From Synechococcus sp. M16CYN (lineage in GTDB: Bacteria; Cyanobacteriota; Cyanobacteriia; PCC-6307; Cyanobiaceae): a DNA stretch of 64,000 nucleotides. The notes beneath the pieces are model-generated. The model saw nothing but the letters and a program-made list of their open reading frames with translations, did no database searches and had not been told where the DNA came from. Positions 38,162 through 53,045 of the stretch are shown here, piece after piece. Numbering within the stretch: the stretch's first letter is position 1; the number at the start of each line of letters is the position of its first letter. The translations under genes and the position numbers were made by a program. Location of the stretch: NCBI RefSeq assembly GCF_040371545.1, contig NZ_AP029048.1:992001-1056000 (forward strand), written 5' to 3'.

Positions 38162-40254
<2,093 letters not shown>

Positions 40255-40258
<4 letters not shown>

Positions 40259-47962: not shown

Positions 47963-48460
47963 TCAGCCGAGAGAGTTGATTACATAATCCAGCAGATTGT
48001 TATAAGCGGTCAGAGCCTGGGGGCTCATATCGCGAGGTGCACAACCGTCATTACGCATCTGAGAGAAGCCAGCCACATAGGTACCAGGATCGATGCTAAG
48101 AGCTTTATAAACCTCTTTCTGACCGTTGATAGCTAGCTCATCCAGGGGACCAGTGCCACCTGTAACCAGGCAGTAGTTGATCAAACGCAGATAGTGAATG
48201 AAGTCACGCTTGCACTTTTCTTTACCTTCAGTGGCGCACTGGCGAGGCTGACGACCAGTAGCGCCGTTAGGGTATTGAGCGTACACAGCGTCAACAGCGC
48301 GCTGTGCTATGGCGTCGTAGTTAGAAGCTAACTTTTCAGCAACTTCTAGGCGTGCAGCAGCACGTTGTATGGAGCCCTGTACAGACTCCATATCGGAAAC
48401 AGAGGGAAACCGAGAAGAGCTGTCGGCTGCGCCAACAACAGTGGTAATAACAGACTTCAT
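47963..48460 (-). CDS. mpeA: Phycoerythrin II alpha subunit
   Basis: 165 residues. Three bilin cysteines are seen: Cys75 ([10 protein letters not shown]), Cys83 ([13 protein letters not shown]) and Cys140 ([13 protein letters not shown]). The third site, Cys75, is what separates type II alpha from type I. The insertion GATGRQPRQ carrying Cys75 is absent from cpeA. It is 50 bases downstream of mpeB on the same strand. The lyases for Cys83 (MpeY or MpeZ) are not seen in this window. Confidence 0.93.
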
Positions 48461-48510: not shown

Positions 48511-50375
<1,865 letters not shown>

Positions 50376-50717
50376 ATGCGGGGTTATATACATGCGATGC
50401 CAATTACTGCCAAAACAAATTCAGCCCTGTCTCATTGTATCGCAGCAATATCAAACAGTTCTAAAATTCGGGATGAATTGAATGAGGTCGACAGTTTGAT
50501 GAGTCTTCGCATTATCATCCAATCTATCGATAGTTCTCTTACGGGAGCTGCTATTATCTCTTTAGAGCAAGCTACTCGTCCCCCAAAAAATCTTGTAGGT
50601 TCAGGTGTTGTTTTCAACGAAATACCCTGGCGTTTACTAAGCTGCACTGGCGGTCCTTTAGTGTTGCAATTAATTTGCAAAAAAGCTAATTTTGCTATTT
50701 GGGTTGAAAGTTGCTGA
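50376..50717 (+). CDS. Small protein of unknown function, first of a three-gene unit
   Basis: 113 residues if read from 50376, or 106 from ATG 50397 (MPITAKTNSALSHC). Mixed helical and strand segments; KIRDELNEVDSLMSLRIIIQ and GPLVLQLICKKANFAIWVE. No domain recognised and no membrane segment. The stop codon overlaps the start of the next gene (TGATG), so the two are translationally coupled. Position inside the phycoerythrin region suggests a role with phycobilisomes. Confidence 0.7.
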   Translation: MRGYIHAMPITAKTNSALSHCIAAISNSSKIRDELNEVDSLMSLRIIIQSIDSSLTGAAIISLEQATRPPKNLVGSGVVFNEIPWRLLSCTGGPLVLQLICKKANFAIWVESC

Positions 50718-51019
50718 TGGTCAACAATGACTTAAGTAGTTTTGTAAATAGTGTGGTTCGCTTTCATGAATTAGCCAAAGGCCTTAAATCTCTCAAGGAT
50801 CATGATGAGATCATTGCTTATGGCCAAAGTCACGGTTTTCAGTTCACTAAATCAGACTGGGAGCTGTTTTATCAGACGGATCTAAGTTTGCAGTCAAACT
50901 CGGTGCGGAGAAAAATTCTGTTGGCAAATCCAGCTCATTGGTCGTGGGCTTTTCGACAGCTTTCAACATGGAGAGCTATGCTTATGGAGGGGGCTGATGA
51001 CGGCAACGCCTCAATCTAG
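50717..51019 (+). CDS. Nif11-like small protein in the phycoerythrin region
   Basis: 100 residues from ATG 50717 (MVNNDLSSFVNSVVRFHEL). The order helix, KSLKDHDEIIAYGQSHGFQFTK, then a Trp-rich tail resembles the Nif11 leader-like domain (helix plus an AxxxGF motif) but without a double-Gly cleavage site. Coupled to the upstream gene by a TGATG overlap. Nif11-like genes of unknown function are known from marine Synechococcus phycobilisome regions. Confidence 0.68.
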   Translation: MVNNDLSSFVNSVVRFHELAKGLKSLKDHDEIIAYGQSHGFQFTKSDWELFYQTDLSLQSNSVRRKILLANPAHWSWAFRQLSTWRAMLMEGADDGNASI

Positions 51020-51048
51020 AACCTAACACTTTCTCATTAACACTTGCT

Positions 51049-51270
51049 ATGTCAGATTTAGAGCAAGATCAATTATTGGAACAATTTATATCTTTGGCTC
51101 GTTCAGATAAAGAGCTTCGTTTAAAGATTAAGTCTGCACTGAACCAAGATGCAATACTTGAAATTGCACGTGAACGAGGATTTATACTTGAATCCACAGT
51201 CATATTGCGAAAGTGGAGTCAGCACACTGATTTTTCAAAACCTACGTGGTTGGGATGGTTTGATGAGTAA
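51049..51270 (+). CDS. Second Nif11-like small protein
   Basis: 73 residues: MSDLEQDQLLEQFISLARSD, then ELRLKIKSALNQDAILEIA followed by RERGFILESTVILRKW. This is the Nif11 pattern of two helices and an IAxxxGF segment. It lacks a peptide-precursor tail, so it is unlikely to be a natural-product leader here. It follows the previous gene by 29 bases and converges with the gene at 51274. Confidence 0.7.
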   Translation: MSDLEQDQLLEQFISLARSDKELRLKIKSALNQDAILEIARERGFILESTVILRKWSQHTDFSKPTWLGWFDE

Positions 51271-51273
51271 TAT

Positions 51274-51579
51274 TTAAGTATTAATCTCTGAATACCTTGT
51301 TTGTTGACTGCCTCGTTCAGCCCAATAAGTTACAAATGCTTCACCACCTGGACGTGGAACACTGGCAACTGCTCTTAATATTTTGAACGATCTTTTAGGT
51401 CCCATTGGCCAATTTCCTACTGCTTTAACTGTTCTAATTTTTCCCCCTATTGATTCAATATATCGTTCAAACTTTTCTAATTGAGTTTGGTCTACTGTTT
51501 CAAAAACAAAGTTATTTCTCTCGCAAATTAAATGCTGTGATCTAATCCATGACTTAATTTGTTTTTCAATATCGAGCAT
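51274..51579 (-). CDS. Small protein of unknown function next to cpeT
   Basis: 101 residues, start MLDIEKQIKSWIRSQHLIC. One helical half, then strands LEKFERYIESIGGKIRTVKAV and FKILRAVASVPRPGGEAFVT. The phrase on a residue-position pattern GGKIRTVKAV is reminiscent of the CpcD-like end of rod linkers (GGKIxxIxxV), but the similarity is short. It follows cpeT by 3 bases on the same strand. Function unknown. Confidence 0.72.
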   Translation of the reverse strand: MLDIEKQIKSWIRSQHLICERNNFVFETVDQTQLEKFERYIESIGGKIRTVKAVGNWPMGPKRSFKILRAVASVPRPGGEAFVTYWAERGSQQTRYSEINT

Positions 51580-51582
51580 TTG

Positions 51583-52194
51583 CTATTCCTTATTTTGAAT
51601 CCAACTTGAATTAATTATTTCCGAAATATTCTTTATGCGTTTAAAACGTAACAATCCATGTTCAGATCCCCATCTTGGCTGATTAGTTTCGAGATCAAAA
51701 CCACGATCTCGACTAATCCAATTGTCTTGATCTACTTGAACTTCGCTAACTAAATATGTTAAGTAACCATCTCTTGGTATCAAACATTTTTTACCAGGTT
51801 CAACTGATCCTATGTAACAACCACTGGTTTTTTCTCTAAAATGCATAGCGCAACCAAAACGGCAAGAAAGACTATTAATGTTTAAATATTGCAATAATTC
51901 TGGATTGCGTCCAGCACCAGCTATTCGTTCCTTATCAGCAAATCCGTAGTTATTTAGAATATAAATTTTCTCTTTAACTTCTAAGCGATGAATGCCTTGT
52001 CGATAAGGTTGCCATGGAGCATAATTATAATATTGTTCCGAATAGAAACCAGGACCATTAAAAATTTCCCATGGGAGTGGACGAAATACAATATTTATCC
52101 TAGCGAAATTTTTTGGACTCTTTTGTGACTGTGCATAATTGTCATAAATGCCTGCTAGTGTGTTGGCAAATTTAAGACGTTTATTTATATCCAT
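51583..52194 (-). CDS. cpeT: T-type bilin lyase CpeT
   Basis: 203 residues of the CpcT/CpeT family, related to rpcT in this window. Visible features are KFANTLAGIYDNYAQSQK, RINIVFRPLPWEIFNGPG, CRFGCAMHFREKTSGCYIGS, GKKCLIPRDGYLTYLVSEVQ and RDRGFDLETNQPRWGS. CpeT attaches bilin to Cys165-type sites of phycoerythrin beta. It lies 13 bases downstream of cpeS. AT-rich compared with the linkers. Confidence 0.9.
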   Translation of the reverse strand: MDINKRLKFANTLAGIYDNYAQSQKSPKNFARINIVFRPLPWEIFNGPGFYSEQYYNYAPWQPYRQGIHRLEVKEKIYILNNYGFADKERIAGAGRNPELLQYLNINSLSCRFGCAMHFREKTSGCYIGSVEPGKKCLIPRDGYLTYLVSEVQVDQDNWISRDRGFDLETNQPRWGSEHGLLRFKRIKNISEIINSSWIQNKE

Positions 52195-52207: not shown

Positions 52208-52744
52208 TTAAATTTTTATTTTTCTTACTTCTGAAGCAAATGATGATTGCAATATACCTGAGCCAGCTGAAGTATTGAGAACTGAGGAGCGACAACGAAC
52301 ATTGTCTGAGACAAACCAAATTCTTTCCTCTGTTATAGATTGTTCATAATTAGTACTTAAAACAAAAGTGCCGTCTTCAAGAAATTTATAATTCGATTCT
52401 GCTGGTACTGATTCCGCATAACCAATACTGCGAAGTATTTGGCCTGAAGTTTTATTTGTTGGAATAGGAACAATGATGCATGAACCATTCGAAACCTGCG
52501 AAGGATCATCTGGTTCCCAATCACTTTCTGCCTGCCATTCAATTTGAAATGGAGAAGAAAATATACTATCGTCTCGGAGAGATGATGATCTAATTAGTTT
52601 TTTTATTATTTGATTGTTAGTTTTAATGCTTTTGATTGAGATCTCACTAAGAACATCTTCAAATTGTTGAAAAGCTAGTGAATGACCAGACCTCATTGAA
52701 CGCCAATTGCCCAAACTTTGAGCAACAAATCGCTCAATATCCAT
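52208..52744 (-). CDS. cpeS: S-type bilin lyase CpeS
   Basis: 178 residues from ATG 52744 (MDIERFVAQSLGNWRSMRSGHSL in two parts: first FVAQSLGNWRSMRSGHSLAF). The motifs ILRSIGYAESVPAESNYKF and TEERIWFVSDNVRCRSSVL match the S-type lyase family. CpeS loads phycoerythrobilin onto Cys82 of phycoerythrin beta subunits. Upstream are 300 bases before cpeE; downstream it runs into cpeT. The start at 52750 adds only MK. Confidence 0.88.
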   Translation of the reverse strand: MDIERFVAQSLGNWRSMRSGHSLAFQQFEDVLSEISIKSIKTNNQIIKKLIRSSSLRDDSIFSSPFQIEWQAESDWEPDDPSQVSNGSCIIVPIPTNKTSGQILRSIGYAESVPAESNYKFLEDGTFVLSTNYEQSITEERIWFVSDNVRCRSSVLNTSAGSGILQSSFASEVRKIKI

Positions 52745-53045
52745 TTTCATCTAGATTTAGTTTAGTAGCATTGTTACGTATAGAAATAAAATTATTCTGC
52801 ATCATGTTGACTAAAGAATTAATCATCAATGACATAGCCATAGGGACCGATGCAATAGACTTGTTAAACGCTTCATTTTGATTAGACTGGCCTTTCGTAG
52901 TGTGGCGAAGGATGGGCATAATAAAAATTTAAATTAATAGAGTGTTTGCTAGATTAATTTATTTTAAGTAAAAGTTTGAGGATTCAGCACAGATTATCTA
53001 TAATCAATTTTTCATAAGTTAAATGATTAATAGATACTTAAAAAT

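Follow-up and report, generated by a model that had tools for sequence, protein, structure and literature searches.

Three small Nif11-type genes beside mpeBA in Synechococcus sp. M16CYN follow phycoerythrin II and may encode maturation factors

Introduction

Phycoerythrin II (PEII) is a main blue-light antenna protein of open-ocean Synechococcus. The Nif11 fold is known from peptide-precursor pathways, where it forms the leader that modifying enzymes recognise. In Synechococcus sp. M16CYN the two subjects meet, since three small genes, two of them for Nif11-like proteins, were found within the phycoerythrin region of the window, that is, the whole analysed stretch of 64,000 nucleotides (GCF_040371545.1, contig NZ_AP029048.1, positions 992,001 to 1,056,000, forward strand). 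The question raised by this locus is whether these genes encode peptide precursors or parts of the PEII machinery.

Three consecutive short genes of the PEII sub-region were catalogued as unknowns, unk7 to unk9, in the available text of Six et al. 2007 (PMC2246261), which describes them as PEII-specific, with PF07862 in two of them and a fusion in WH7803. They are given alongside mpeA, B, C, U and Y in the available text of Mahmoud et al. 2017 (PMC5318389). No function for unk7-9 was found in the literature searched, most subscription papers lying outside its reach. The genes of the window are likewise three consecutive short PEII-region genes, two of which carry PF07862, and in the genomes surveyed they were confined to PEII strains. 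As far as the available text of Six et al. 2007 goes, they do not differ in kind from unk7-unk8-unk9, and the window is a further instance. The helper system that an earlier note on this DNA had called undescribed therefore consists of genes already named in the two papers cited above. ORF1 was identified with unk9 on the grounds that it alone lacks PF07862, while ORF2 as unk8 and ORF3 as unk7 are provisional labels that could be the other way round.

Results

Gene anatomy and neighbourhood

The genes of the locus are as follows.

47963..48460, minus strand: mpeA, PEII alpha subunit; belongs to the group with 74-100% identity, apart from the CpeA-type (at most 61%)
48511..49047, minus strand: mpeB, PEII beta subunit, 178 aa; adjoins mpeA, with matches in other mpeA loci
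49048..50396, no strand: gap, the usual mpeY site in most relatives; no mpeY remnant in the window
50397..50717, plus strand: unk9 (ORF1), 106 aa; probably diverged Nif11-like helices, then a conserved, predicted beta tail
50717..51019, plus strand: ORF2 (provisionally unk8), 100 aa; Nif11 domain, then a HWSWAFRQ..WRAMLM tail
51049..51270, plus strand: ORF3 (provisionally unk7), 73 aa; Nif11 domain, then a KWS.HTDFS..TW.GWF tail
51274..51579, minus strand: protein of 101 aa, convergent; orthologues occupy the corresponding position, no Pfam match above cut-off
51583..52194, minus strand: CpeT family protein (PF06206, E=1.4e-57)
52208..52750, minus strand: CpeS family protein (PF09367, E=8.5e-57)

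The start of ORF1 is most likely the ATG at 50397 (106 aa) rather than 50376 (113 aa), since 106 aa is the length of most orthologues. The start of ORF2 overlaps the stop of ORF1 at 50717 as TGATG and ORF3 follows after 29 bp, so the description of three plus-strand small genes, the first two overlapping and the third close behind, was accurate. The exact TGATG junction was present in 18 of 58 loci, the window included, and the remaining loci had different short overlaps or spacings. The conserved tails comprised about 58, 51 and 25 residues in ORF1, ORF2 and ORF3, respectively. The three ORFs are real and not chance, because orthologues in the same order adjoin mpeBA in other genomes and their dN/dS values are mostly low.

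The unk operon is divergent from mpeB-mpeA and convergent with the gene of the 101-aa protein, behind which lie the CpeT and CpeS genes. By its position the 101-aa protein may be cpeR. A 61-aa ORF (52734-52919, minus strand) lies upstream of cpeS; its place and size suit unk6 of Six et al., and similar ORFs were present in many related loci. A third Nif11 protein (L002:1312-1650, minus strand, 112 aa), encoded at another place of the window genome, has a different tail.

When the window was searched for an mpeY remnant by tblastn with 8 MpeY proteins, only matches of 8-17 residues (E>2) were obtained. The same genome encodes a stand-alone lyase (G000:C1:703575-704801; L196:6576-7805) with 61% identity to the stand-alone lyase of genome G061 and 48% to the PEII-locus lyase of G061. 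The CA4-A (mpeZ) island is placed in RCC307 in the available text of Humily et al. 2013 (PMC3877281). The lyase of the window genome is probably MpeZ by sequence, as it is closer to the stand-alone lyase of G061, taken here as RCC307, which has the mpeZ island. Three genomes (G328, G318 and G302) resemble the window strain in having no mpeY at the usual place and a stand-alone MpeZ-type lyase, and this combination suggests fixed blue-light (high phycourobilin) strains. In Synechococcus AG-679-C18 an mpeY-like fragment (37 bits, L174:4803-5012) was found at an otherwise empty mpeY site, as if decaying.

Co-occurrence with PEII across genomes

The sample consisted of 400 genomes of the family, in which the searches for mpeA, unk9 and unk8 were taken as one set by matching handles. 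Among the matches listed, the MpeA-type (74-100% identity) was separate from the CpeA-type (at most 61%). mpeA was present in 71 of the 400 genomes, in full length in 69 and partially in two (G132 and G340). The earlier note had proposed co-occurrence with mpeBA across strains as a check and occurrence in strains lacking phycoerythrin as evidence against a link; the profile search detected unk9 in 68 of the 71 genomes with mpeA and in none of the 329 without it, and both results agree with the proposed link. The misses were G336, the contig of which begins just upstream of mpeB (L063), and G220 and G230, whose genomes are 73 and 72% complete. A CpeA-type gene only was carried by 37 of the 329 mpeA-less genomes, hand-picked as PEI-only by a best E-value of at most 1e-48, at least 5 matches and no mpeA, and unk9 occurred in none of them. 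Counted by genus, unk9 was found in 9 of 59, identical to the 9 with mpeA. The link is thus to PEII specifically, which is sharper than a link to phycoerythrin in general. A Fisher test presupposes independent genomes, which these are not, and it was given no weight.

Full-length unk8 (at least 105 bits) was found in 60 genomes, all with mpeA, which are the 68 unk9 genomes minus 8 of a sponge-symbiont-type clade (g23, below); G132 had it twice, and the next matches reached at most 33.7 bits, mostly over the Nif11 half. Outside g23 and G086, 14 genomes with mpeA were searched for full-length unk7 (at least 99.5 bits), and 13 had it, the exception being G336. The full-length gene was found in none of the 10 g23 genomes and none of the 37 PEI-only genomes, many of which have other Nif11 proteins, while G086 gave a match at E 5.7e-4 only. 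Among 242 genomes sampled from the class, a tail profile (A7) had matches in 9, each of which carries mpeA and belongs to the family of the window strain.

G132 carries two differing unk9-unk8-unk7 blocks on contigs C191 and C237 (L164, L165), perhaps from two strains binned together. MAGs under the names Deltaproteobacteria UBA6967 and Prochlorococcus MIT 9215 also contain contigs with mpeBA and unk genes (L182, L193), probably through mis-binning or misnaming. Phage transfer was rejected as a candidate: of the viral_contigs stretches that fitted the patterns (19 and 29), none encodes a relative of unk9 or unk8.

Linkage in mpeA loci

Comparison of 69 mpeA-centred stretches located unk9 near mpeBA in 57 of the 59 loci outside g23, in addition to the window; both exceptions (L063 and L124) run out at a contig edge. 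unk8 and unk7 were found in 57 loci, the window included, as separate genes in 42 and fused in 15, with the ORF3 equivalent behind ORF2. Locus L114, where unk8 stands alone, was left out of the counts for fusion, mpeY, MpeC and MpeU. In 5 of the 57 loci (the window, L056, L057, L062 and L065), mpeB and unk9 have no mpeY between them. With two to four loci set aside for insufficient length, the MpeC linker was missing from 13 of 55 loci that keep unk9, and 12 of 53 had no MpeU-type lyase. Among the accessory genes mapped, unk9 is therefore the most faithful companion of mpeBA, mpeY, MpeC and MpeU each being lost in some strains. As the unk genes adjoin mpeBA, they could simply have been gained and lost with it as passengers, except in the sponge-type clade.

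Retention of unk9 in the sponge-symbiont-type clade

The clade g23 (10 loci) is probably Synechococcus spongiarum, following the available text of PMC6363710. Here unk9 lies outside the stretches around mpeBA, yet it is kept in 8 of 10 genomes. In four of its eight own g23 loci (L156, L159, L160 and L161) it is preceded by phycobilisome-type genes, namely those of an MpeY-type lyase and a pentapeptide protein and one resembling the gene at 39632-40258 of the window. Their order and orientation agree with those in an Aphanocapsa feldmannii MAG (L114/L194), the contig of which also carries mpeBA plus unk9-unk8. These upstream genes, the MpeY-type lyase included, were missing from L157 and L162, both long enough upstream, and L155 and L158 were too short upstream to judge. 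The link to PEII is strong and outlasts the loss of adjacency. unk8 and unk7 are lacking in g23, hence PEII does not require them in every strain.

The match of the eight g23 unk9 proteins to the marine profile begins at positions 5-7 and extends to 103-106 (E 4e-14 to 5e-11), and residues I54, Q58, A59, G70, W78, R79, L81, G86, Q91 and W102 were invariant in marine and g23 proteins. PF07862 was detected at 39.9-46.7 bits in the four g23 orthologues scanned, while six other orthologues were below the cut-off. Comparison of profiles gave a probability of 95 for unk8 against unk7; marine unk9 gave 69 against unk7 (moderate) and 12 against unk8 (weak). Since the g23 orthologues scanned carry a clear Nif11 domain, all three proteins, unk9 included, are probably Nif11-derived.

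Domains and structure models

PF07862 (Pfam cut-off 23.8 bits) was matched by ORF2 with 36.0 bits (E=8.7e-9) and by ORF3 with 30.9 bits (E=3.3e-7), which confirms the two Nif11-like proteins recognised earlier; ORF1 of the window had no Pfam match. The leader model TIGR03798 (NCBIfam cut-off 32.3 bits) was matched by ORF2 just above the cut-off (32.8) and by ORF3 below it (28.6), with no match for ORF1. Pfam linker, HEAT, CpeS and CpeT domains were not detected in ORF1-3 at E up to 1.

The window unk9 was modelled with a mean pLDDT of 86.1 (of five models, two were near 86 and three at 69-74); three helices were predicted at the N-terminus, followed by a tail of five strands in which the GG lies between strands. 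The best Foldseek match of this model had E 0.16, and its best VIA match (3nec_A, Z 4.2, rmsd 3.5, 70 aligned) was level with unrelated folds and uninformative; the PDB sequence search with the unk9 profile gave a chance-level match only (E 6.8). For the fused unk8-unk7 protein of WH7803 two helical domains joined by a low-confidence linker were predicted (pLDDT 87.4). This model had no Foldseek match at E<=0.001, and its VIA match to 9zn4 (Z 4.2, 57 aligned, rmsd 2.6) was level with unrelated chains. By sequence the solved leader 9zn4 (MppE) matches the unk8 and unk7 profiles (E=1.1e-5 and 5.5e-4, respectively). The Foldseek and VIA searches provided no functional lead.

Comparison with peptide precursors

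In the available text of Haft et al. 2010 (PMC2887384), the similarity among N11P precursors stops at the cleavage motif, usually Gly-Gly, after which a low-complexity region rich in Cys, Gly and Ser follows. That the unk genes are such RiPP precursors, sitting by chance in the pigment region, would agree with the score of ORF2 barely over the leader model, with the GG of unk9, conserved in all 27 rows of the marine-type alignment, and with the C39 peptidase domain (PF03412) in 33 of 68 unk9 genomes (31 over the cut-off). Against this, the tails are at least as conserved as the leader part, the mean pairwise identity of Nif11 half and tail being 33 vs 69% for unk9, 46 vs 48% for unk8 and 57 vs 75% for unk7. 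GG did not occur in the tails of 23 unk8 and 22 unk7 rows, and that of unk9 is placed between strands in the predicted structure. The search for modifying enzymes covered LanM (PF13575) and C39; LanM was found in 11 of 68 unk9 genomes and absent from 57, and the window genome has neither. By the GG motif, tail conservation and LanM/C39 occurrence, the precursor reading was rejected as very improbable.

Compared with Nif11-type RiPP precursors (TIGR03798/N11P, prochlorosins; available text of PMC2887384), unk8 and unk7 have the N-terminal Nif11 domain in common, but they lack the Gly-Gly plus variable core, their tails are conserved and LanM is mostly absent from the genomes. The automatic name of ORF2, Nif11-like leader peptide family RiPP precursor, is probably misleading. 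In the features tested (GG, tail conservation and LanM/C39) the earlier view that no peptide-precursor design is present held; the words "without precursor tails" apply insofar as neither ORF2 nor ORF3 shows a Gly-Gly followed by a variable core, whereas conserved tails are present in all three proteins.

A RiPP survey of marine Synechococcus (PMC10783134, available text) counts other Nif11 precursors in 206 clusters, with one group located near photosynthesis genes; the unk genes may be among its clusters. Unk10, in the available text of Humily et al. 2013, is likewise a short protein of the Nif11 type associated with PEII pigment genes, but it is a separate gene linked to chromatic acclimation islands.

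Selection

dN/dS was calculated from 16 chosen close pairs, several values not being computable (dS zero or saturated) and L096/L097 being left out for MpeB, where the wrong copies had been paired (46% identity). Where computable, the unk genes had values of 0.02-0.45, with the exception of unk8 at 1.45 in a near-identical pair (dS 0.02). The unk genes are under purifying selection, at rates similar to those of CpeT (0.02-0.31). MpeA and MpeB were mostly lower, the unk genes lying above them in nearly all computable pairs. Such rates are more in keeping with an accessory factor than with a core subunit of the rod.

Discussion

Co-occurrence with PEII, retention when not adjacent to mpeBA, conserved tails on a small Nif11 fold and rates of the accessory type together point to PEII maturation or assembly. 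We give about even chances to the reading that unk9, unk8 and unk7 are PEII-specific maturation or assembly factors, small proteins of the Nif11 fold. The Nif11 helical fold would have been retained and the variable core peptide swapped for conserved tails. We infer a helper role as a trans-acting adaptor, by lyase or nascent-subunit binding, in which the tails would bind MpeA/MpeB (or an intermediate of assembly), the MpeY/MpeZ-family alpha-Cys83 lyase, or both; such action would lead to efficient bilin attachment and hexamer formation, and unk8 and unk7 may operate as one two-domain unit. A working model is proposed in CpeZ, a chaperone-like, non-catalytic helper of chromophore attachment (available text of PMC7948978). 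CpeZ is counted there in the CpcE/F group of HEAT-repeat proteins, and no sequence relation to unk7-9 appeared in the Pfam scan. According to the same text, recombinant MpeV acts on CpeB and MpeB with CpeS and CpeZ, and no Unk protein is named in the part available, so Unk proteins appear not to be needed for at least that chemistry. More tentatively, and on balance doubtfully, the RiPP leader fold may have been domesticated as a peptide-less "leader in trans" that brings bilin lyases to a separate substrate, PEII.

The strict co-occurrence with mpeA would be equally expected if the three proteins were minor structural components of the PEII rod, such as capping or linker-like small subunits, instead of transient helpers. 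We regard this as unlikely, since none of the three matched a linker domain, they mostly evolve faster than MpeA/MpeB and at CpeT-like rates, and two of them (unk8 and unk7) are missing in g23. The divergent orientation of the operon from mpeBA and the small size of the proteins would suit regulators of PEII amount, acting on stability, turnover or translation, but no match to a DNA- or RNA-binding family was found, and regulation in place of maturation seems quite improbable. Unk9 might also be a bilin carrier or transferase acting through conserved cysteines, C83 and C94 being invariant and C106 nearly so in the 27 marine-type rows. C83 and C94 are, however, absent from all 8 sponge-clade orthologues, and C106 from two of them and from L114; no lyase family match was obtained either. 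The absence of two cysteines in the sponge clade rules out cysteine chemistry of unk9 as a universal mechanism, and we consider the carrier or transferase role highly unlikely.

Over Six et al. 2007, this analysis adds the probable Nif11 descent of unk9, the retention of the gene when unlinked, the conservation of the tails and the profile across 400 genomes. The new element is the probable descent of all three proteins from the Nif11 leader fold, with conserved tails. If the helper reading is true, the unk genes would name missing parts for rebuilding PEII outside its host.
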